Origin: Neptunicoccus cionae
GTDB lineage: Bacteria > Pseudomonadota > Alphaproteobacteria > Rhodobacterales > Rhodobacteraceae
Assembly: GCF_014643735.1 (NCBI RefSeq)
Contig: NZ_BMKA01000004.1
Coordinates: 248,001-312,000, forward strand
Direction: 5' to 3'
Length of the DNA stretch: 64,000 nt
Shown: in pieces, positions 816-12,827 of the stretch
Position numbering within the stretch: position 1 is the stretch's first letter
How the letters are laid out: every line of letters starts with the position of its first letter
The notes under the pieces: model-generated
The model's database searches: none
What the model was told of the DNA's origin: nothing
What the model saw: the letters and a program-made list of their open reading frames with translations, nothing else
Translations under genes and position numbers: made by a program

Positions 816-2303
816 TCAAACGCTCATCGTGGCGTCGATTGCTTTCTTCCAACCGGCGTATTTGGCTTTGCGCTGGTCTTCTTTCATATCGGGCGTGAAC
901 TGTTTGTCGAGCGCCCAACCTTTGGCAAACGTTTCCTGATCGGGGTAAAGGCCCACGTGCATCCCCGCCAGCCACGCCGCGCCCAGTGCGGTTGTTTCCA
1001 GTACTTTCGGACGGTCCACAGGCGCTGCGATAATGTCAGAAAGGAACTGCATGGCAAAGTCGTTCGCGGACATGCCCCCGTCCACACGCAGAGTCGGTTG
1101 CACGCCGTCGACCTGCCAGTCCGCCGACATCGCATCAAGCAGATCGCGGGTCTGGAAGCCGACACTTTGCAGCGCGGCCCGTGCCATTTCCGCTGGACCG
1201 GATCCCCGCGTCAGCCCGAACACCGCACCACGGCAATCGGGGTTCCAATAGGGTGCGCCAAGGCCGACAAATGCGGGGACAAGGATCACGTCCTGATTGT
1301 CATCCGCCTCCATCGCCAGCGCTTGGGTCGCGGCTGCATCCTTGATAATCTGCAAACCGTCCCGCAGCCATTGCACCACGGCCCCCGCAACAAAGATCGA
1401 CCCTTCCAGCGCATAGGTTGGTTTGCCGTCGAGTTGATAGGCAATCGTCGTCAGCAGCCGGTTTTTTGACACAACAGGGGTCTCACCCGTATTAAGCAGG
1501 GCAAAACATCCGGTGCCATAGGTGGATTTCAGCATCCCGGGTTTGAAACAGGCCTGCCCGACCGTGGCCGCCTGTTGGTCCCCCGCGACGCCGCAAATCG
1601 GGATTTCATGGCCGAACAGATCGGCCCGAGCACTGCCAAAATCGGCTGCGCAATCCTTGACTTCGGGCAGCATTTCCATCGGAATATCAAGCAGTTCGCA
1701 AATTGTACTGCTCCAACGGCCCTTGCGGATATCATAAAGCATGGTGCGCGCTGCATTGGTGGCGTCCGTGGCATGGACCTTGCCGCCCGTCAGCTTCCAG
1801 ATCAGATAACAATCGACCGTGCCAAACAGCAGTTCGCCGTTTTCTGCTGCTTCGCGTGCGCCCTCTACGTTTTCTAGGATCCAGCGCAGTTTTGTGCCGG
1901 AGAAATATGGATCAACCAGCAATCCTGTGCGGTCTGCGATCATGTCGCCTTGCCCGCTGTCGCGCAAACTGCGGCAATATTCAGCGGTGCGGCGGTCCTG
2001 CCAGACGATGGCGTTGTAAACCGGGGCGCCGGTTTTGGCGTTCCAGACGATGGTGGTTTCGCGCTGGTTGGTGATGCCAATGGCCGTCACCTCGCGCGAG
2101 GATAATCCCGCCCGCTCAATCGCCGCGCGACAGGTGCCTGCTGTCGTCGCCCATAGGTCCGCTGGATCATGTTCGACCCAACCGGAGTTGGGGAAAATCT
2201 GGCGGAACTCTTCCTGCGCACTGGCAACAGGTTTCATGTTTTTGTCAAACAGAATGGCCCGCGTCGAAGTCGTGCCCTGATCAATGGCGAGGATATGGGT
2301 CAT
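816..2303 (-). CDS. glpK: Glycerol kinase
   Basis: Phosphorylates glycerol to sn-glycerol 3-phosphate in the cytoplasm, trapping what the upstream ABC importer brings in; GlpD then oxidises it. 495 residues, the normal length for FGGY-family glycerol kinases. Seen: the N-terminal phosphate loop DQGTTSTRA at residues 8-16, the catalytic-Asp segment [10 protein letters not shown] near 240, [11 protein letters not shown], and the C-terminal ATP-binding segment [15 protein letters not shown]. The ATG at 2303 has an upstream AGGTGG. It is the penultimate gene of the glp operon and is separated from glpV by 160 bases holding two strong hairpins, so it may be expressed at a different level from the transporter. 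Confidence 0.97.
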
Positions 2304-2463: not shown

Positions 2464-4185
2464 TTACTGCCAGGATTTGATCAGCTCGTCGTAAGAAACC
2501 GTTTTTGGCTCTTCGTCTTCATTGGCCAGTTTGGCCTTAGGCGAACCAGGTTGGGACAGCCAGTGCTCTGGGTCCATTTCCTCGTTCATCTTCGGGCCGA
2601 TGTCGCCTTGAACACCTGCACGCTCCAGACGGATCAGAACTTTTTCCTGATCGGCACACAAAGCGTCGAGCGCTTCTTGTGGGGTTTTCGCACCGGACAT
2701 TGCGTCACCGATGTTCTGCCACCACAGCTGGGCCAGTTTCGGGTAGTCAGGCACGTTTGTACCGGTTGGGGACCACTGAACGCGGGCAGGGGAGCGGTAG
2801 AATTCTACCAGACCGCCAAGTTTTGGCGCCCGTTCGGTGAAGCTGTCGTGCTGGATCGTGGATTCACGGATGAATGTCAGACCAACGTGGGATTTCTTCA
2901 CGTCTACAGTTTTGGATGTCACAAACTGGGCATAGAGCCACGCTGCTTGTGCGCGATCCACAGGTGTGGATTTCATCAGTGTCCAGGAACCGGCGTCTTG
3001 GTAGCCGATTTTGGTGCCTTCAGACCAGTAAGCGCCGTGTGGCGAAGGTGCCATCCGCCATTTCGGTGTACCGTCCTCGTTCATTACAGGCAGATCAGGT
3101 TCTACTGATGCCGCTGTAAAGGCTGTGTACCAGAACATTTGCTGTGCAACATTACCCTGCGCAGGAATTGGGCCTGCTTCGGAGAATGTCATACCGGCAG
3201 CCGCTGGTGGAGAGTATTTTTCCAGCCATTCGATTGCCTTGGTCACAGCATAAACCGCTGCTGGTCCGTTTGTGGCACCGCCACGGGCGACACAGGAACC
3301 AACAGGCTGGGAGTTCTCATTCACACGGATACCCCATTCGTCCACAGGCAGGCCGTTCGGCTCACCCACATCGCCTGCACCAGCCATGGACAGCCACGCA
3401 TCGGTGTAGCGCCAGCCAAGGGACGGGTCTTTCTTACCGTAATCCATGTTGCCATAGATGTCGCCGTCAACGCCCATGTGGGACAGATCACGGCCGGTGA
3501 AGAATTCAGCGATGTCCTCATAGGCAGACCAGTTTACAGGCACGCCCAGATCATAGCCGTATTTCTCTTTGAAATCAGCTTTGTTCTTGTCGTCGTTGAA
3601 CCAGTCATACCGGAACCAGTAAAGGTTGGCGAACTGCTGATCCGGCAGCTGGTAAACCTTGCCATCCGGTCCTGTCGTGAAGGACAGACCGATGAAATCT
3701 TCCAGATCCAGACCCGGATTTGTCACAGAAGCGCCTTCGCCTTCCATCCAGTCGGATAGGTTGCGGGCTTGCTGGTAACGCCAGTGGGTGCCGATCAGAT
3801 CGGAGTCGTTGATATAGGCGTCATAGATGTTTTCGCCGGACTGCATTTGTGTTTGCAGCTTTTCAACCACGTCACCTTCACCAATCAGGTCGTGTGTGAC
3901 CTTGATACCGGTGATCGCTTCAAAAGCAGGTGCCAAAGTGTTGGCTTCGTATTCGTGGGTGCCGATGGTCTCGGAAACCACATTGATGGACATGCCCTCA
4001 AACGGTTTGGCTGCATCCACAAAGAACTGAAGCTCTGCTTCTTGTTCTGCGCGGGACAGGACGGACATGTCTTTGATTTCGGAATCCAGAAACGCTTTGG
4101 CGGCGTCCATATCTGCGAACACAGGCGTGCTCAGCATACAGGCCACCACGCTTAACGCGGATGTTCCTTTAAGTCGCAAGTTCAT
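2464..4185 (-). CDS. glpV: Glycerol ABC transporter, periplasmic substrate-binding protein
   Basis: Binding protein of the GlpSTPQUV-type glycerol importer. 573 residues, long for a carbohydrate binding protein but expected for GlpV. Seen: a signal peptide of about 24 residues (MNLRLKG..., hydrophobic core, cleavage after PVFA), then a family-1 extracellular binding-protein body. I chose the ATG at 4185 because GGGAGG lies just upstream; an in-frame TTG at 4200 sits on top of that ribosome site and is not the start. Gene order glpD-S-T-P-Q-U-V-K matches the operon described in Rhizobium leguminosarum. Two hairpins follow its stop codon. Glycerol specificity is inferred from gene order plus glpK and glpD. 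Confidence 0.92.
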   Translation of the reverse strand: MNLRLKGTSALSVVACMLSTPVFADMDAAKAFLDSEIKDMSVLSRAEQEAELQFFVDAAKPFEGMSINVVSETIGTHEYEANTLAPAFEAITGIKVTHDLIGEGDVVEKLQTQMQSGENIYDAYINDSDLIGTHWRYQQARNLSDWMEGEGASVTNPGLDLEDFIGLSFTTGPDGKVYQLPDQQFANLYWFRYDWFNDDKNKADFKEKYGYDLGVPVNWSAYEDIAEFFTGRDLSHMGVDGDIYGNMDYGKKDPSLGWRYTDAWLSMAGAGDVGEPNGLPVDEWGIRVNENSQPVGSCVARGGATNGPAAVYAVTKAIEWLEKYSPPAAAGMTFSEAGPIPAQGNVAQQMFWYTAFTAASVEPDLPVMNEDGTPKWRMAPSPHGAYWSEGTKIGYQDAGSWTLMKSTPVDRAQAAWLYAQFVTSKTVDVKKSHVGLTFIRESTIQHDSFTERAPKLGGLVEFYRSPARVQWSPTGTNVPDYPKLAQLWWQNIGDAMSGAKTPQEALDALCADQEKVLIRLERAGVQGDIGPKMNEEMDPEHWLSQPGSPKAKLANEDEEPKTVSYDELIKSWQ

Positions 4186-4251: not shown

Positions 4252-4524
4252 TTACACCCAGCGAAACACCGCTACGGCGTAGAAAAAACAGACAATCAAC
4301 GCGCCCCATTGCGACACGTCGGTCGTTGCGAGCCATGCCAGATTGATAAAGGCAGACCCCAACAGGGTGATGAACAGACGATCCCCCCGTGTGGTTTCAA
4401 TCCGCAAAATGCCAACCCGAGGTGTCTCGGGGAATTTAATCGCAAGGATCGTGAACACGATCAGGGTCGCGGCGATGACTGCGAAGAAAATTGCAGTGGG
4501 CCAGGTCCATGCCATCCATTCCAT
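4252..4524 (-). CDS. glpU: Small membrane protein of the glycerol ABC transporter (DUF2160)
   Basis: 90 residues with three hydrophobic segments (about 9-29, 50-66 and 73-88). The length, hydrophobic profile and place between the GlpQ permease and the GlpV binding protein match the DUF2160 predicted membrane protein called GlpU in rhizobial glycerol operons. The ATG at 4524 is preceded by AAGGAGAG at good spacing. Its exact part in transport is unclear; other CUT1-type importers, including the smo system here, lack such a subunit. It lies 21 bases after glpQ and 66 bases before the glpV start. Confidence 0.88.
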   Translation of the reverse strand: MEWMAWTWPTAIFFAVIAATLIVFTILAIKFPETPRVGILRIETTRGDRLFITLLGSAFINLAWLATTDVSQWGALIVCFFYAVAVFRWV

Positions 4525-4545: not shown

Positions 4546-5379
4546 TTACACGCGACCCAGGGCAAAACCCTTGGCGATGTAGTTGCGGACAAAGTAAATC
4601 ACCAATGCGCCGGGAACGATGGTCAGCACACCGGCAGCAGCCAGCACGCCCCAGTCAATACCGGCAGCCCCGACGGTGCGGGTCATGGTGGCTGCGATAG
4701 GTTTGGCGTCCACACTGGTCAGTGTCCGGCTGAGCAGCAATTCGACCCAGCTGAACATGAACAGGAAGAAAGCGGTAACACCGATGCCAGAGGCAACCAG
4801 AGGGGTGAAGATGCGGATAAAGAAGCGCGGGAACGAATAGCCGTCGATGTAGGCGGTCTCGTCGATTTCTTTTGGCACGCCACGCATGAAGCCTTCCAAA
4901 ATCCAAACAGCCAGCGGCACGTTGAACAGACAATGGGCCAGCGCAACTGCGATATGGGTGTCAAACAACCCGACCGAGGAATACAGCTGAAAGAACGGCA
5001 GCGCGAAAACCGCAGGCGGTGCCATCCGGTTGGTCAGCAGCCAGAAGAACAGGTGTTTGTCGCCCATAAATGTATAGCGGCTGAAAGCATAGGCCGCTGG
5101 CAGCGCCACCGCGAGGCTGATCACCATGTTGATCACTACATAAGCCATCGAATTGAGATAGCCGGTGTACCAAGACGCATCCGTCAGGATGGTTAGATAG
5201 TTGTCAAAGGTCAGATCACGGGGCCACAGAGTAAATGTGTTCAGGATTTCCGTGTTGGTCTTCAGGCTCATCGTCAGCAGCCAATAGATCGGCAGCAGCA
5301 GGAATAACAGATAGAGCCCCATGACAATGGCGTTGCCCTTGATGCGGAAGCCACCGCGTTTTTGTGCAGAAACAGACAT
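4546..5379 (-). CDS. glpQ: Glycerol ABC transporter permease 2
   Basis: MalG-type inner-membrane permease of 277 residues with about six membrane segments. Seen: the EAA loop that docks on the ATPases, KEIDETAYIDGYSFPRFF near residues 173-190, and the conserved ALPAAYAFSR segment. The start ATG overlaps the glpP stop by one base (TGATG), so the two permeases are translationally coupled. A close paralogue lies at 12018-12827, sharing stretches such as ALAHCLFN, DETA-IDGYS and FMFSWVE. Confidence 0.95.
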   Translation of the reverse strand: MSVSAQKRGGFRIKGNAIVMGLYLLFLLLPIYWLLTMSLKTNTEILNTFTLWPRDLTFDNYLTILTDASWYTGYLNSMAYVVINMVISLAVALPAAYAFSRYTFMGDKHLFFWLLTNRMAPPAVFALPFFQLYSSVGLFDTHIAVALAHCLFNVPLAVWILEGFMRGVPKEIDETAYIDGYSFPRFFIRIFTPLVASGIGVTAFFLFMFSWVELLLSRTLTSVDAKPIAATMTRTVGAAGIDWGVLAAAGVLTIVPGALVIYFVRNYIAKGFALGRV

Positions 5380-6251
5380 CAGTGGCCATCCCTTTTATCG
5401 AGGTTCGTCATAACGGTGTAGAACACATAGGAGATCAGCAGGATCACCAGATAATACATGATCGAGAAAGCCGCCGCCGGTCCAAGGTCAAACTGCCCCA
5501 GCGCCATTTTCACAAGATCAATCGACAGGAAGGTTGTCGAGTTACCCGGTCCACCGCCCGTCACCACGAATGGTTCGGTGTAGATCATGAAACTGTCCAT
5601 AAACCGCAGCAGGATCGCGATCATCAGAACGCCGGTGATCTTTGGCAGCTCGATGAAACGGAACACGGCCCAGCGGCTGGCTTGGTCGATCTTGGCCGCC
5701 TGATAATAAGCATCCGGAATGGATTGCAGACCGGCATAGGCCAGAAGTGCGACAAGCGAGGTCCAGTGCCACACATCCATAACAATGACCGTAATCCACG
5801 CGGCATAGAAGTTCTGGGTGTAATTATAATCAATCCCCATTGCATCCAGCGTGTAACCCAGCAGGCCAATATCGACCCGACCGAAAATCTGCCAGATCGT
5901 GCCAACCACATTCCACGGGATCAACAGGGGCAGGGACATCAGTACCAGACAGAAGGACGCCCAGAACCCTTTCTTGGGCATATTCAGTGCTACAAAGATG
6001 CCGAGCGGAATTTCAATGGCGAGGATGATCGCGGAAAAAGCGATCTGCCGCCCCAGCGCATCCCACATCCGTTCGGACGCCATCATTTCGCGGAACCAGT
6101 CGATACCGGCCCAGAAGAACTGGTTGTTACCGAAAGTGTCCTGCACAGAATAGTTCACCACCGTCATCAGCGGGATCACAGCCGAAAAGGCGACAAGCAC
6201 CAGAACGGGCAGGATCAGGAACCATGCCTTTTGGTTGACAGTCTTGTTCAT
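5379..6251 (-). CDS. glpP: Glycerol ABC transporter permease 1
   Basis: MalF-type inner-membrane permease of 290 residues with about six membrane segments. The docking loop QAAKIDQASRWAVFRFIELP near residues 190-209 is intact, followed by LLRFMDSFMIYTE. The start ATG overlaps the glpT stop by one base (TAATG). A second, very similar permease is at 11155-12021; both keep IPL-TVVNYS, DVWHWTSLV and LLRFMDSFMIYTE, which suggests a fairly recent shared origin. Confidence 0.95.
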   Translation of the reverse strand: MNKTVNQKAWFLILPVLVLVAFSAVIPLMTVVNYSVQDTFGNNQFFWAGIDWFREMMASERMWDALGRQIAFSAIILAIEIPLGIFVALNMPKKGFWASFCLVLMSLPLLIPWNVVGTIWQIFGRVDIGLLGYTLDAMGIDYNYTQNFYAAWITVIVMDVWHWTSLVALLAYAGLQSIPDAYYQAAKIDQASRWAVFRFIELPKITGVLMIAILLRFMDSFMIYTEPFVVTGGGPGNSTTFLSIDLVKMALGQFDLGPAAAFSIMYYLVILLISYVFYTVMTNLDKRDGH

Positions 6252-7333
6252 TATTTCTCCCCCGCAGGTGCAACGCGCCAGCTGTCCGCGTAGATGTTGA
6301 TCCCCGCCGGATCGAACACGATCCGGTTGGCATCCGGTGAAATAGAGCTGCCTTCTTCGGCAATCACGTTGATCTCGGTGCCGTTGAAGTCTGCGCGCAC
6401 GATCTTGTGGCGGCCAACGTCCTCGACCCTTTTAACGGTCACGGGCAGTCCGGTGTCTCCGCTGGTCAGCGTAGTGAATTCCGGACGGACGCCCAGTTCA
6501 ACCTTGCCAGAAACCGCACCGAACCCTTGGCCAAGCGCAATTTCTGTACCGTTCAGAACCGCCTTGTCGCCAGACACTGTCGCATCCAGCACGTTCATAC
6601 CGGGGGAGCCGATGAAATAGCCCACGAAGGTATGTTCAGGACGTTCGAACAGCTCTTGCGGCGTGCCCATTTGCACCACGCGACCATCATACATCACCAC
6701 AACCTTATCCGCAAAGGTCAGCGCCTCTGTCTGGTCGTGGGTCACGTAAATCATGGTGTGGCCAAATTCGTGGTGAAGGGATTTCAACTGCGTGCGCAGT
6801 TCCCATTTCATATGTGGGTCGATCACCGTCAGTGGCTCGTCAAACAGCAGCGCGTTCACATCTTCACGCACCATCCCCCGCCCGAGCGAGATCTTCTGCT
6901 TGGCATCCGCGGTCAGTCCACGGGCCTTGCGGTTCAGCATTTCTTCCATGCCGATCATCTGTGCGATCTGTTGCACACGGTCCCGCACATAGGCCGCATC
7001 CGCCCCGCGATTGCGCAGCGGAAAGGCCAGATTGTCCCGCACAGTCATCGTGTCATAGACCACCGGAAACTGGAAAACCTGCGCGATGTTGCGCTCCGTC
7101 GTGGGCGCGTGGGTCACGTCCTTGTCGTCAAACAGGATACGTCCCTGACTGGGATGCAACAGGCCGGAAATGATGTTGAGCAACGTGGATTTCCCGCACC
7201 CCGAGGAGCCGAGCAGCGCATAGGCTTCGCCGTCCACCCAATCGTGGTTCAGCTCTTTCAGGGCGTAATCCTGTTCCCCTTTCGGGTTTGGCAGATAGGA
7301 ATGAGCCAGATTGTCGAGGGTGATTTTAGCCAT
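6251..7333 (-). CDS. glpT: Glycerol ABC transporter ATPase with degenerate signature motif
   Basis: 360-residue CUT1-type ATPase with a C-terminal regulatory (TOBE-like) domain. Seen: canonical Walker A GSSGCGKST (42-50), Q-loop VFQF (86-89), Walker B LLFDE (162-166) and switch His 199 in YVTHDQTEA. The ABC signature, LSGGQ in nearly all family members, is instead LTADAKQ (140-146), and the D-loop is LTVID rather than SNLD. The partner GlpS has the opposite pattern. A GlpS/GlpT heterodimer would therefore have one consensus ATP site (GlpT Walker motifs with the GlpS signature) and one degenerate site. Start ATG overlaps the glpS end by 8 bases. Confidence 0.95.
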   Translation of the reverse strand: MAKITLDNLAHSYLPNPKGEQDYALKELNHDWVDGEAYALLGSSGCGKSTLLNIISGLLHPSQGRILFDDKDVTHAPTTERNIAQVFQFPVVYDTMTVRDNLAFPLRNRGADAAYVRDRVQQIAQMIGMEEMLNRKARGLTADAKQKISLGRGMVREDVNALLFDEPLTVIDPHMKWELRTQLKSLHHEFGHTMIYVTHDQTEALTFADKVVVMYDGRVVQMGTPQELFERPEHTFVGYFIGSPGMNVLDATVSGDKAVLNGTEIALGQGFGAVSGKVELGVRPEFTTLTSGDTGLPVTVKRVEDVGRHKIVRADFNGTEINVIAEEGSSISPDANRIVFDPAGINIYADSWRVAPAGEK

Positions 7334-8447
7334 GGGTCAAGCCCTCTGTCGCTGTCGCGGTTTGTGTCTCTGTAGCGTAGGCAGCAGGGGCAACAGATGT
7401 GCCGTCCTGCGCAAAGATGTAAACGTGGCGGGGATCAAGAAAGACTTTCAGCGCTACCCCGATTTCAAGGTCTTTCACCCCGTGGATCAGACCCACCCAA
7501 TTTTCACCGTGATGATCCAGATGGACGAAAGTCTCTGATCCGGTGATCTCTTTGACCTGCAAGGTTCCGGTAAATTCCAGCGTGGCATTGCCACGGTTTT
7601 CCAGTTCCAGATGGTTGGGCCGGAAACCGGCCACGTATTCACCGTCAGGCAGAGCCGCAAATCCGGCGGAACCGGCGCTTTGCCCGTCGCCGAAGTGCAA
7701 AGTATCGCCGGATTTACGAATGTTGAGAAAGTTCATCGGCGGATCGGAAAACACCCGCGCTGTGGTCGCATCTACCGGCTGGCGGTAGACGATCGGGGTC
7801 TTGTCGAATTGTGTGATCCGGCCTTCCCACATGGTCGCCGTGTTCCCGCCAAGCAGCAGGGCTTCCTCAGGTTCTGTTGTGGCGTAAACAAAGATCGACC
7901 CGGCTTCCTCAAAAATCTTCGGGATCTCTGCGCGCAGTTCTTCACGCAGTTTATAGTCCAGATTGGCCAGCGGTTCATCGAGCAGCACCAGACCCGCATC
8001 CTTGACCAGCGCACGAGCCAGCGCACACCGTTGCTGTTGCCCGCCGGACAGTTCCAGCGGCTTGCGGTCCAGCATTTCCGACAGTTTCATCAGATCTGCG
8101 GCTTTCTTCACAGCCGCGTCAATTTCCGCCGCAGTCTTGCCAAGAAGGCGCATCGGGCTGGCGATGTTTTCATAAACAGTCATCGAAGGGTAGTTGATAA
8201 ACTGTTGGTACACCATCGCAACACCACGATCCTGCACCCGCATGCCGGTGACATCCTTGCCGTCCCAGAACACCTTGCCGGTGTTGGGCACATCAAGCCC
8301 CGCCATTAAGCGCATCAGGGATGTTTTACCCGCCAAAGTCGGGCCAAGCAGCACGTTCATGGTTCCCGAGCGCAGCTCAAGATCCGTGGGGTGGATATGG
8401 GTCTGGCCGTTCACGACCTTGGATACACCCTCAAGTACAAGTGCCAT
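7326..8447 (-). CDS. glpS: Glycerol ABC transporter ATPase lacking the switch histidine
   Basis: 373-residue CUT1-type ATPase. Seen: a divergent Walker A GPTLAGKT (35-42), Q-loop VYQQF (79-83), canonical signature LSGGQ (133-137), Walker B LVLLDE (153-158) and D-loop LANLD. The switch histidine is missing: the usual Y-V-T-H-D reads YATTE (188-192), with Thr 191 in place of His. ATG 8447 was chosen because AAGGAG precedes it and glpD stops one base upstream; upstream codons in frame lie inside glpD. The two ATPases are separate genes, as in rhizobial glycerol operons, unlike the single homodimeric ATPase of the smo system here. Confidence 0.95.
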   Translation of the reverse strand: MALVLEGVSKVVNGQTHIHPTDLELRSGTMNVLLGPTLAGKTSLMRLMAGLDVPNTGKVFWDGKDVTGMRVQDRGVAMVYQQFINYPSMTVYENIASPMRLLGKTAAEIDAAVKKAADLMKLSEMLDRKPLELSGGQQQRCALARALVKDAGLVLLDEPLANLDYKLREELRAEIPKIFEEAGSIFVYATTEPEEALLLGGNTATMWEGRITQFDKTPIVYRQPVDATTARVFSDPPMNFLNIRKSGDTLHFGDGQSAGSAGFAALPDGEYVAGFRPNHLELENRGNATLEFTGTLQVKEITGSETFVHLDHHGENWVGLIHGVKDLEIGVALKVFLDPRHVYIFAQDGTSVAPAAYATETQTATATEGLTHG

Positions 8448-8448
8448 G

Positions 8449-10068
8449 CTATTCTCCTTGTGCGCGTTTTGCGGGCGCCTGACCGGAATTCGTGGCAGAA
8501 TTATCAGCCATCCATTTATCCAGCGCGTCAATTTCCTGTGGCGTCATGCGCAGCCCCAATTTGGAGCGCCGCCAGACGATATCCTGCGCCGTGCGCGCGT
8601 ATTCCTTATCCATCAGCCAGAGCACTTCACGTTGATAAAGGTCACTGCCGAAATCCTGCCCCAGATCAGCGGCAGATTTTGCATCGCCGAGAATTTCAAA
8701 AGCGTCGGTGCCATAGGCCTTGATCAGACGGGCACACCAACGTGGGGACAGAAAATCGTATTGCGCAGAAAGCTTGCTTTTCAGCTCCTCAACCCCGCGC
8801 ACCGGAAAATCACCACCCGGCAAAGGTACGCCAGCGGTCCAGCGGTCCGGCAACCCGTCAAAATGCGGCGCAATCTTTTCCAGCGCGGTTTCGGCCAAAC
8901 GGCGGTAGGTAGTGATCTTCCCGCCAAACACGTTCAACATCGGCGCACCCGCAGAGGTGTCCACCTTCAGCACATAATCCCGTGTCGCCGCCGTGGCCGA
9001 ACTTGCCCCGTCATTATAAAGCGGGCGCACGCCGGAATAGGTCCAGACGATGTCCTCTTTGGTGACAGTTGACTTGAGATAGTTTGACGCGAACTCAAGC
9101 AGATAATCCCGTTCTTCGGGGGTGCATTCCGGCTTTTGGGACACGTCGTCATGATCCGCGTCGGTGGTGCCGATTAGGGTGAAATCTGTCTCGTAGGGGA
9201 TTGTAAAGATGATGCGTCCATCTTCGCCTTGAAAGAAATAGCATTTGTCGTGGTCGTACAGCTTGCGGGTCACAATGTGGCTGCCTCGCACCAGACGCAC
9301 GCCTTCGGTTGTGTTGATCCGCGCGGTGTTGCGGATCACGTTTTCCACCCAAGGCCCGCCCGCATTAACCAGCATCTTCGCGGTAACGGTGCGCTGGTCG
9401 CCCGTATCGGTATCTTCCAGCGTGATCGACCAATGGCCGTCCACTTGTTCGGCAGACACAACCTTGGTGCGCACGTTGATTTTCGCACCGCGGGCTTCGG
9501 CATCCCGTGCATTCAGCACAACAAGGCGGCTGTCTTCAATCCAGCAATCCGAATATTCATAGGCTTTGTGAAAGCGGTCTTGCAGCGGCGCGCCGTCGAC
9601 TGAGTTGTCCAGACTGACAGACTTGGTGCCTTCCAGTATCTCGCGGCCACCCAAATTATCGTAAAGAAACAGGCCCAGCCGTACCAACCATGCAGGGCGG
9701 CGGCCCTTCATCCACGGCATCACAAATCCCAGCAGTTTGGACGTGGGGGTATCGCCCTCAAAGCGCATGTCTTTGTGATAGGGCAGCACAAATCGCATCG
9801 GCCAGGAAATATGAGGCATCGCCTTGAGCAGGGTTTCCCGTTCAATCAGGGCTTCGCGCACCAGACGCACTTCCCAGTATTCCAGATAGCGCAATCCGCC
9901 GTGGAACAGTTTAGTTGATGCTGAAGAGGTAGCAGACGCCAGATCGTTCATCTCGGCCAGTTCAACCCGCAAGCCACGTCCCGCCGCATCACGGGCGATG
10001 CCGCATCCGTTAATGCCGCCGCCAATGACGAACAGGTCAATCATATCCTGATTTCCGTGCTGACTCAC
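8449..10068 (-). CDS. glpD: Aerobic glycerol-3-phosphate dehydrogenase
   Basis: FAD flavoprotein at the inner membrane that oxidises glycerol 3-phosphate to dihydroxyacetone phosphate and feeds electrons to quinone. 539 residues. Seen: N-terminal dinucleotide-binding VIGGGINGCGIARDAAGRG (about 14-32), the SSASTKLFHGGLRYLE segment near 48-63, and a C-terminal domain typical of GlpD. The start is GTG at 10068, preceded by GGAGG at 5-base spacing; no better ATG lies upstream. First gene of the glp operon, reading away from glpR across a 293-base control region. Confidence 0.96.
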   Translation of the reverse strand: MSQHGNQDMIDLFVIGGGINGCGIARDAAGRGLRVELAEMNDLASATSSASTKLFHGGLRYLEYWEVRLVREALIERETLLKAMPHISWPMRFVLPYHKDMRFEGDTPTSKLLGFVMPWMKGRRPAWLVRLGLFLYDNLGGREILEGTKSVSLDNSVDGAPLQDRFHKAYEYSDCWIEDSRLVVLNARDAEARGAKINVRTKVVSAEQVDGHWSITLEDTDTGDQRTVTAKMLVNAGGPWVENVIRNTARINTTEGVRLVRGSHIVTRKLYDHDKCYFFQGEDGRIIFTIPYETDFTLIGTTDADHDDVSQKPECTPEERDYLLEFASNYLKSTVTKEDIVWTYSGVRPLYNDGASSATAATRDYVLKVDTSAGAPMLNVFGGKITTYRRLAETALEKIAPHFDGLPDRWTAGVPLPGGDFPVRGVEELKSKLSAQYDFLSPRWCARLIKAYGTDAFEILGDAKSAADLGQDFGSDLYQREVLWLMDKEYARTAQDIVWRRSKLGLRMTPQEIDALDKWMADNSATNSGQAPAKRAQGE

Positions 10069-10361: not shown

Positions 10362-11153
10362 ATGGTGTCAAATTTCAGGCAGCAGGAAATTCTCGAAATT
10401 GCGCGGGAACAAGGCAAAGTCACTGTCGACGGGCTGGCGGAACGCTACGATGTTACGGTGCAAACCATCCGGCGCGATCTCGCGGAACTGTCCGAAAGCG
10501 GGCGGTTGGAGCGGGTTCACGGCGGGGCTGTGATGCCTTCTGGGGTGGTGAATATCATTTACGAAGAACGCCGCCGTTTGAACGAGGCTGGCAAAAAGGC
10601 CATCGGCCAGCGCTGTGCGGCGGCTATTCCCAATGGGGCATCTGTTTTTATGAACATCGGCACCAGCACGGAAGCGGTGGCGCGGGAACTGCTCGATCAT
10701 GAAAACCTGTTGGTGGTGACGAACAACCTGAACATCGCGAATATTCTAGCCGCGAACCAAAGCTGCGAGATCATCCTGGCGGGTGGTGTCCTGCGCCGCG
10801 CGGACTCCGGTATTGTGGGCGGGTTAACGGTAGAGATGGTGAAACAGTTCAAATTTGATTACTCGGTTCTGGGGTGCTCTGCCATTGATACGGACGGAGA
10901 TTTGCTGGATTTTGACGGTCAGGAAATCATGGTCAGCAGCACCGCGATCCAGCGGTCCCGCAAGGTCATGATCGTGGCGGATCATCTGAAATTCCAGCGA
11001 AAAGCCCCCCTGAACATCTGTTCCCTGCGCGACGTGGATGTGTTCTACACAGACGGCAAATTGCCCAAATCCCTTATGGAGGATTGCGTCGGCTGGGGCA
11101 CTGAGGTCGAGATTGCCGAACCTGCAGGTTTGCGGGGGCGCAGAGCGACTTAG
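10362..11153 (+). CDS. glpR: DeoR-family transcriptional regulator, GlpR type
   Basis: 263 residues. Seen: an N-terminal DeoR winged helix (RQQEILEIAREQGKVTVDGL..., recognition region DVTVQTIRRDLAELSESGRLERVHGGA, about 6-55) and a C-terminal sugar-phosphate-sensing domain with GTSTEAVARELL, VTNNLNIA and ILAGGVLRR. Known GlpR proteins repress glycerol genes and are released by glycerol 3-phosphate; its position divergent from glpD supports the same role. The ribosome site is weak (GGGAAGAGGG about 11 bases before the ATG). The next gene starts one base after its stop, so it shares a transcript with two permeases. Confidence 0.92.
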   Translation: MVSNFRQQEILEIAREQGKVTVDGLAERYDVTVQTIRRDLAELSESGRLERVHGGAVMPSGVVNIIYEERRRLNEAGKKAIGQRCAAAIPNGASVFMNIGTSTEAVARELLDHENLLVVTNNLNIANILAANQSCEIILAGGVLRRADSGIVGGLTVEMVKQFKFDYSVLGCSAIDTDGDLLDFDGQEIMVSSTAIQRSRKVMIVADHLKFQRKAPLNICSLRDVDVFYTDGKLPKSLMEDCVGWGTEVEIAEPAGLRGRRAT

Positions 11154-11154
11154 C

Positions 11155-12021
11155 ATGAAACCGACAGACAATACCGGGTGGTTCTTTGTGCTGCCCGCCA
11201 TGGCAGTGCTTGGCCTGATCGGGCTGATCCCGCTGATCACGGTTGTGAACTATTCCTTCTTTGAAATTTTCATCCTCAGTTCGCGCTTTTGGGTCGGGCT
11301 TGAATGGTACGCAGAACTGATCGGCTCTGCCCGCTTCTGGCAGAGCTTTGCCCGCAGTGCGCTGTTTTCGATGATTGTTCTACTCATTCAAATTCCGCTC
11401 GGCATCGCGCTTGCCCTATGCATCCCGAGGGGGCGCATCTGGATCGGCTTGTCGCTTGTGGTGGTGGCACTGCCACTGCTGGTACCGTGGAATATGATCC
11501 CCGCGCTGTGGCTCAGCCTGCTCAATCCGGACACTGGAATTTTGGGGCGTTTGGGTGCGGTTCTCGGATGGCCTGCGAATTGGAAGGATTCCGTGCTTCA
11601 CACTTGGGTGGTGATTGTTGCGATGGATGTCTGGCACTGGACTAGCCTTGTGGTGATCTTGTGCTATTCGGCGCTGACAACCATTCCCGCCGCTTATTAT
11701 CAGGCTGCTGCAATTGACGGCGCGCGTCCTTGGGACGTGTTCCGGTTTATCCAGTTTCCACGCTTGCAGAATGTCCTGCTGATGGCCGTTTTGCTGCGCT
11801 TTATGGATTCCTTTATGATCTACACCGAAGCGTTCCCGATAAACGCAGGCGGTCCGGCACAGGCGACACTGTTTCTGGCGGTTGATCTTGGGGAGGAAAT
11901 AAAAGCGTTTAATTACGGTCCCTCTGCGGCGCGCTCGGTTCTCTATTTCCTAATCATCGTGACTGTGGCGTGGCTGTTTACCAAGGCGCAGGGCAAGCTG
12001 GAGGATAAGGCCGCGTCATGA
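11155..12021 (+). CDS. Orphan ABC permease, GlpP paralogue
   Basis: 288-residue MalF-type permease. Its sequence follows GlpP along most of its length, with shared stretches including IPLITVVNYS, PLLVPWN, AMDVWHWTSLV, AAYYQAA-IDGA and LLRFMDSFMIYTE. The ATPase-docking EAA loop (QAAAIDGARPWDVFRFIQFP) is intact, so it can in principle still engage an ATPase. Start ATG is one base after the glpR stop. No ATPase or binding-protein gene follows, so it must borrow GlpS/GlpT or be a remnant. No frameshift or stop is seen, which argues it is maintained. Confidence 0.88.
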   Translation: MKPTDNTGWFFVLPAMAVLGLIGLIPLITVVNYSFFEIFILSSRFWVGLEWYAELIGSARFWQSFARSALFSMIVLLIQIPLGIALALCIPRGRIWIGLSLVVVALPLLVPWNMIPALWLSLLNPDTGILGRLGAVLGWPANWKDSVLHTWVVIVAMDVWHWTSLVVILCYSALTTIPAAYYQAAAIDGARPWDVFRFIQFPRLQNVLLMAVLLRFMDSFMIYTEAFPINAGGPAQATLFLAVDLGEEIKAFNYGPSAARSVLYFLIIVTVAWLFTKAQGKLEDKAAS

Positions 12022-12827
12022 TCCTGATCTATCGACACCTCGGCGCGATAAAGATCGCGGGCTTGCTGATTTTTATGGTTTTCGTCTGCTTGCCACTTGT
12101 GCAAATGACCCTGCTCAGCTTTATTGCAACGCTGCCCCATGAGGGACTAGAGGTCGGCCAATTCACGATCCGCAACTTCACCACCATCCTGACTGAGCCC
12201 AACCTGCGCGCCGCTTTCGCAAATTCCATTGCTTACGTGCTGATTAACATCTGCATCACCATTCCCGTCGCGCTGCCTGCGGCTTATGCATTTTCACGCA
12301 TGTCGTTTCTGGGGGATAAATCCCTGTTTCTGGCCTTCATCGCCTTTCGCATTACCCCGCCTGTCGTGCTGACGCTGCCAGTGTTCCAGCTGTTCTCGGC
12401 CCTTGGGATTGTCAATTCCGTGTTTGGCATCGCGTTGGCCCATTGCCTGTTCAACTTGCCGATTTCCATCTGGATTTTGCAGGGTTTCATTTCCGCAATC
12501 CCCAAGGAGATGGACGAAACCGCCTTTATTGATGGCTATTCGCGGCCCCGTTTTATCTGGTCGATCCTGATCCCCCAGATCAGGGCGGGCGTCGCTGTGG
12601 CGGCTTTCTTTTGCTTTATGTTCTCTTGGGTAGAGGTGGTTTTTGCCCGCATCCTGACCACCACCAACGGCAAGCCGATCAGCATGGCGATCAGTTCCTT
12701 GTTCGGGTTCCAAACCGATATCGGGCTGGTCATGGCCGTGACACTGGCGTCAATGGCGCCCGGCGCGGTTTTGCTTTTTGCAATGCGAAACCACCTGTCA
12801 CGCGGTTTCCGGATCGGTCAGGTTTGA
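12018..12827 (+). CDS. Orphan ABC permease, GlpQ paralogue
   Basis: 269-residue MalG-type permease that overlaps the previous gene by four bases (ATGA), a sign of translational coupling. It follows GlpQ closely: SIAYVLINICI, ALPAAYAFSRMSFLGDKSLF, ALAHCLFNLPISIWIL, and the docking loop KEMDETAFIDGYSRPRF. With the upstream gene it forms a complete permease pair without its own ATPase, binding protein or GlpU-like subunit. Pairing with GlpS/GlpT is inference from sequence similarity and shared control. Confidence 0.88.
   Translation: MILIYRHLGAIKIAGLLIFMVFVCLPLVQMTLLSFIATLPHEGLEVGQFTIRNFTTILTEPNLRAAFANSIAYVLINICITIPVALPAAYAFSRMSFLGDKSLFLAFIAFRITPPVVLTLPVFQLFSALGIVNSVFGIALAHCLFNLPISIWILQGFISAIPKEMDETAFIDGYSRPRFIWSILIPQIRAGVAVAAFFCFMFSWVEVVFARILTTTNGKPISMAISSLFGFQTDIGLVMAVTLASMAPGAVLLFAMRNHLSRGFRIGQV

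Follow-up and report, generated by a model that had tools for sequence, protein, structure and literature searches.

The window analyzed here, a stretch of 64,000 nucleotides from Neptunicoccus cionae (contig NZ_BMKA01000004.1, positions 248,001 to 312,000), encodes a putative glycerol importer with two different ATP-binding cassette (ABC) ATPases, GlpS and GlpT, whose ATP-site motifs are altered in complementary fashion. A preliminary description of this DNA had read the two proteins as forming one consensus and one degenerate composite ATP site; this reading is supported by 192 of 196 GlpS/GlpT pairs, in which all 13 of the motif features scored were present. The split of motifs is nearly invariant, and the earlier observation had understated it. 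The second glycine of an ABC signature faces the gamma-phosphate, and GlpT has an aspartate at that place. A composite ATP site takes its Walker A and B motifs and its A-, Q- and H-loops from one nucleotide-binding domain and its signature from the other (PMC7756269, in excerpt); given this make-up, the site that combines the GlpT Walker motifs with the GlpS signature is complete, while the site that combines the GlpS Walker motifs with the GlpT signature is without the aromatic residue, the histidine and both signature glycines. All of the deviations in the two ATPases (GlpS A-loop, GlpS switch, GlpT signature and, more weakly, GlpT D-loop) fall in this one composite site.

In the window, glpT (6251..7333) and glpS (7326..8447) are both on the minus strand and overlap by eight bases. 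GlpT carries a good Walker A (GSSGCGKS, 42-50), the A-loop Tyr13, the Walker B Glu166 and the switch His199 in VTHD, together with a deviant signature, LTADAKQK (140-147), and a deviant D-loop, LTVID (168-172, within LLFDEPLTVID); the translation and the alignments agree in full with what had been claimed for this protein. As first described, GlpS has the intact signature LSGGQQQR (133-140) and the D-loop LANLD (160-164, in VLLDEPLANLD), and Thr191, in ATTE, stands where the switch histidine is expected; it also has Glu158, and its A-loop residue is Val12. When aligned by HMMER with MalK-type ATPases of solved structure, LTADAKQK falls on LSGG and ATTE on VTHD. The claim of a divergent Walker A in GlpS went too far: the motif, GPTLAGKT (35-42), fits GxxxxGKT with the P-loop lysine and threonine intact, its family form GxTxxGKT is found throughout the 195 sequences covering this stretch, and an otherwise complete control ATPase has GQTGAGKT. 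Both proteins are MalK/UgpC-type ATPases by sequence matches; the Pfam domain ABC_tran is found in each and OB_MalK is reported for GlpT only. The predicted model of GlpS (mean predicted local distance difference test score, pLDDT, of 80.9) has MalK 2r6g as its best structural match, with a template modelling (TM) score of about 0.78.

The 196 pairs comprise the window and 195 others from relatives, whole genomes and plasmids, 80 of the 195 coming from close relatives. Loci that matched exactly in the central part of both proteins were collapsed into one; near-identical pairs remain, and four plasmid pairs were added without this step; L118 (where the contig ends before GlpS), seven control loci and the repeats L081-L083 and L235-L261 were left out. 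The lowest pairwise identity was 34% for GlpS and 43% for GlpT. In GlpS, LSGGQQQR, DEP and L-x-N-L-D were each found in 196/196, and Lys41, Thr42, Asp157 and Glu158 were kept in every covering sequence; residue 191 was Thr in 184 and Ser in 12, and the A-loop position, which would stack on adenine, was Val in 179/196, with a single aromatic (Phe in L177). In GlpT, His199, DEP, Tyr13 and LTVID were each present in 196/196, and the signature followed L-[TSGA]-[AP]-D-x-K-Q, with Asp143 in 195/196, Lys145 and Gln146 in 196/196 and Thr or Ser at the serine position in 180/196. No GlpT with SGG (0/196) and no GlpS with a switch histidine, that is, no half-lost intermediate, was seen among the 196 pairs. 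The four exceptions to the full pattern were L019 (GlpS cut by the contig end), L177 (the A-loop Phe), L231 (an alignment gap at the A-loop) and L225 (GlpT LGAADKQ). In a separate count over the 80 related loci (the best 80 of 254 relatives) and the window, GlpS had ATTEPEEAL and LSGGQQQR in 81/81, and GlpT had VTHDQTEAL and L[TGA]ADxKQ in 81/81. Aligning the orthologues thus revealed no random loss of motifs, and drift or sequencing error was rejected as an explanation, the pattern being kept first in 80 loci and then in 196 pairs.

The same positions are nearly constant, in the consensus state, in the other ABC ATPases compared. There were 44 such controls, 41 taken from 40 stretches among the matches in the genomes G001 and G003 (34 and 27 matches, GlpS and GlpT included) and three from the window. 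The switch histidine, the second signature glycine and the Walker B glutamate were present in 44/44; the signature was SGG in 41/44 and SNG or SYG in the remaining three, and Asp at the second glycine occurred in none. This bears out the earlier remark that the GlpS/GlpT arrangement is unusual for an importer of the CUT1 type. The other ATPases of the window had been called consensus throughout, and the three non-Glp ATPases caught by our search do keep the histidine and SGG. A tandem two-ATPase CUT1 pair (L266, 387-2569; also L084 and L085) has LSGG and the histidine in both subunits and occurs in two close relatives, G001 and G002; the idea that two-ATPase operons are asymmetric in general is ruled out by this symmetric pair.

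GlpS and GlpT also travel together. GlpT (E <= 1e-75) was found in 85 of 398 genomes of the phylum and GlpS (E <= 1e-60) in the same 85; in the class sample, searched with GlpT alone, there were 33 of 289. These searches scored the best few candidates per genome, so that extra copies could be missed, and in the GlpT searches the weakest family member had an E of about 1e-103, with no match at all from there up to E 1e-75. In 190 of 191 pairs GlpS and the GlpT that comes after it, in the same direction, lie no more than 150 bp apart; in the remaining pair the distance is 324 bp. Neither protein was found without its partner in the 398 genomes, and because the motif losses are complementary, a homodimer of either GlpS or GlpT cannot hold a complete site; both observations agree with an obligate pair. 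In a midpoint-rooted tree of 24 of the 196 pairs and the 44 controls, GlpS and GlpT each formed one clade (100/100 for each) on a long stem, which fits one origin for the deviations of each protein. That the two are recent duplicates of one another found no support, as they are not sisters in the tree (whose backbone is weak, 77/78). Among plasmid records, 572 had a match; in 48 of them the best place had 80-90% identity to GlpT, and in another 182 it had 60-80%.

We consider it probable, judging from these sequences, that GlpS pairs obligately with GlpT and that this heterodimer hydrolyzes ATP mainly at one site. The heterodimer would sit beneath the permeases GlpP and GlpQ, with the catalytic work done where the Walker motifs, A-loop and His199 of GlpT meet the LSGGQ and D-loop of GlpS. 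The retained Lys41, Thr42 and Glu158 of GlpS suggest that the opposite site still binds nucleotide, which it would hydrolyze slowly or never, acting in a structural or regulatory role as a latch. The cost would then be about one ATP per glycerol. For heterodimeric exporters with one degenerate site, it has been suggested that hydrolysis of one ATP is enough for resetting (PMC7756565, in excerpt).

Several points weigh against such a division of labor. In GlpS neither Glu158 nor the P-loop varies, which is what one would expect of a site that still hydrolyzes ATP. Loss of one functional MalK reportedly abolishes maltose transport, and one would not by default expect a MalK-type importer to work with a single site. 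The loss of the A-loop aromatic is not unique to GlpS, this residue being aligned in 40 of the 44 controls and lacking in four, and the GlpT D-loop is the weakest sign of all, since an otherwise complete control has LGVLD. The model of GlpT is of poor quality over the ATPase domain, with a mean pLDDT of 57.5 there; the fold was tested on GlpS. The divergences of GlpS and GlpT correlate (r = 0.96), as expected of any operon pair, which adds little. We found neither biochemical nor structural work on this transporter; in the PDB, GlpV and GlpP had no close relatives, and none of the PDB ATPase matches listed (the best 60 of 138 and the best 60 of 119) was named Glp.

The first of these points also speaks for an unlikely alternative, in which both sites hydrolyze ATP and the heterodimer is symmetric in function with an unusual second site. 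The changes would then be compensated, Lys145 and Thr/Ser141 of GlpT replacing the signature and Thr191-Glu192 of GlpS replacing the His-Asp; in keeping with this, the D-x-K-Q of GlpT is conserved rather than a string of random letters, its serine position is Thr or Ser in most pairs, and Asp157 of GlpS is kept along with Lys41, Thr42 and Glu158. In the E. coli importer DppABCDF, single Glu-to-Gln mutants of each ATPase retain ATPase activity (PMC12136057, in excerpt), but both ATPases are motif-complete there. The loss of the aromatic, the histidine and both signature glycines in one site is more than compensation should need, and not one of the 44 controls lacks either the histidine or the second glycine.

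A slightly less likely explanation, and in our view an improbable one, is that ATP has ceased to be the fuel of the GlpS-side site. The site would instead bind a different nucleotide, or an ATP that it never releases, and would sense the substrate or the state of the cell. Val in place of the residue that stacks on adenine, with the phosphate-binding lysine and threonine retained, would suit such a site; however, the four controls that also lack an aligned A-loop aromatic indicate that its loss alone is no proof of a changed ligand.

The permeases add an asymmetry of their own. EAA is the canonical coupling loop of such permeases, and both smo permeases of the window carry it (by eye). Each row was given to the permease that it matched best, and rows that did not cover the loop were dropped; on this basis GlpP had QAA in 184 of 186 and RAA in two, and GlpQ had ETA in 158 of 164 and EMA in six. 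These non-equivalent coupling loops and the loss of the GlpS A-loop aromatic go beyond the asymmetries noted at the outset. Directly after glpR, at 11155-12827 on the plus strand, the window holds a further permease pair, which we call P2 and Q2, with neither ATPase nor binding protein beside it. P2 is 43% identical to GlpP and Q2 43-47% to GlpQ. The pair was seen in 17 of the 80 related loci, with QAA in P2 in 17/17 and in Q2 ETA in 13/17 and EAA in 4/17 (20 and 18 rows were first assigned to P2 and Q2, four of which belong to divergent sister systems). Multitask ATPases that serve several CUT1 importers are described (PMC7658222 and PMC8603345, both in excerpt). P2/Q2 may share GlpS/GlpT, and their coupling-loop motifs fit such sharing without demonstrating it. 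That each of the two ATPases instead dimerizes with itself, with GlpPQ served, for instance, by one homodimer and P2/Q2 by the other, is very improbable, even with a second permease pair in the window that adjoins no ATPase: each homodimer would be without a complete ATP site, and the split is identical in 80 of 80 loci when P2/Q2 were seen in only 17 (some loci are short, and the pair could lie elsewhere).

A sister importer with two ATPases is present in Ponticoccus alexandrii (L231, 3949-6089) and on a Streptomyces plasmid (L262, 3911-6080), in the order solute-binding protein, two permeases, two ATPases, with an alcohol dehydrogenase adjoining in both; glpD and glpK are not annotated in either stretch, and in Ponticoccus a pyruvate carboxylase adjoins as well. 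An S. chartreusis plasmid (L263) carries a pair with the same split at a place where the record is unannotated. In both Streptomyces pairs the first ATPase has GRTMAGKT, LSGGQQQR and TTTE and the second LTADDKQ, LTVID and VTHD, and the first permease of the sister systems likewise lacks the coupling-loop glutamate (LAA, MAA and MAA). These two Streptomyces records are the spread we saw beyond Pseudomonadota, other phyla having been reached via plasmid records. With the same split in the sister systems and a non-glycerol operon context on one Streptomyces plasmid, the motif split probably arose before the glycerol role. It is plausible, and we put it forward tentatively, that all of this binding-protein-dependent, MalK-type importer family, in Pseudomonadota and Actinomycetota alike, runs a fixed one-ATP cycle with the second site as a non-hydrolyzing latch, and that the family predates the separation of glycerol from non-glycerol systems. 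The conserved L-x-A-D-x-K-Q would then be the signature of the latch, and the one-ATP cycle would halve the price of a cheap three-carbon substrate.

The assignment of the window transporter to glycerol is judged from its gene context. The operon, on the minus strand, runs glpD-S-T-P-Q-U-V-K, and so contains the whole GlpSTPQUV set (two ATPases, two permeases, a DUF2160 protein and a binding protein), with glpD, glpK and glpR adjoining. The permeases are glpP (5379..6251; UgpA/MalF-like) and glpQ (4546..5379; MalG-like). Between glpQ and glpV lies glpU (4252..4524), which encodes a 90-residue membrane protein of DUF2160 (PF09928), and glpV (2464..4185) encodes the solute-binding protein (SBP_bac_1). 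The transporter genes are flanked by glpK (816..2303; glycerol kinase, TIGR01311 above cut-off) and glpD (8449..10068; glycerol-3-phosphate dehydrogenase, NF008899 above cut-off). Divergent from the operon, on the plus strand, glpR (10362..11153) encodes a DeoR/GlpR-type regulator (DeoRC, HTH_DeoR; best family match below the curated cut-off). GlpT of the window is 96-97% identical to those of its Neptunicoccus and Amylibacter relatives. An Aliiroseovarius crassostreae plasmid (L229, 2054-8073) also carries the transporter; there the binding protein comes first, and glpD, glpK and glpR are not annotated in the stretch shown.

Ding et al. reportedly described the glycerol ABC importer GlpSTPQUV of Rhizobium leguminosarum in 2012. 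Such an importer is described for that species (PMC7912956, in excerpt), and in a Ralstonia strain glycerol-raised expression is reported (PMC11223650, in excerpt). The gene content and order, D-S-T-P-Q-U-V-K next to a GlpR-type regulator, recur on a plasmid of R. leguminosarum WSM2304 (L232), with GlpT 66% identical to that of the window; the regulator on the plasmid is co-directional with the operon, whereas the glpR of the window is divergent. In the open-licence excerpts consulted, those of PMC7912956 included, we found no account of an ATP-site asymmetry in GlpSTPQUV, and an open-licence literature search for asymmetric or heterodimeric ABC importers gave no match.

With MalFGK2, AlgM1M2SS and LpqY-SugABC the importer shares the MalK/UgpC-type sequence and a fold that includes a C-terminal regulatory domain (GlpS model against MalK 2r6g). 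Systems of this type use two copies of one complete ATPase. GlpS and GlpT are, in contrast, two different ATPases with complementary deviations, and, by sequence, the motif split in 196 pairs speaks against two equivalent complete ATP sites. Asymmetry is also known from other importers, namely those with fused RbsA-type ATPases and the mycobacterial Opp/Dpp systems, so that any novelty here is limited to CUT1-type importers.

The likeness to exporters such as TAP and TM287/288, which had been proposed at the outset, holds in part. These two, as well as CFTR, ABCG5/G8 and Pdr5, likewise have one complete and one deviant composite site, and here too the deviant residues are gathered in one site with an altered signature. 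The signature is altered in all human degenerate sites, and a change of the glutamate is the second most frequent alteration, often linked to changes in the H-loop (PMC7756269, in excerpt). In GlpS/GlpT, which unlike these belongs to an importer, the weak site has lost the histidine, the signature glycines and the A-loop aromatic but keeps the Walker B glutamate (DEP in GlpS), whose change is frequent, not universal, in degenerate sites. E. coli DppABCDF is likewise an importer with two different ATPases, and in the absence of DppA a nucleotide analogue was seen at DppF only; both Dpp ATPases, however, are described with functional motifs, and either single mutant is active (PMC12136057, in excerpt). 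The GlpS/GlpT family is thus a natural experiment, with one complete and one deviant site fixed in a MalK-type importer and both nearly invariant. It has long been asked whether an importer spends one ATP per cycle or two, mostly through mutation in symmetric machines. GlpS/GlpT lends itself directly to measuring the ATP spent per substrate; the retained glutamate of GlpS separates the effects of the switch histidine and signature from those of the catalytic base.

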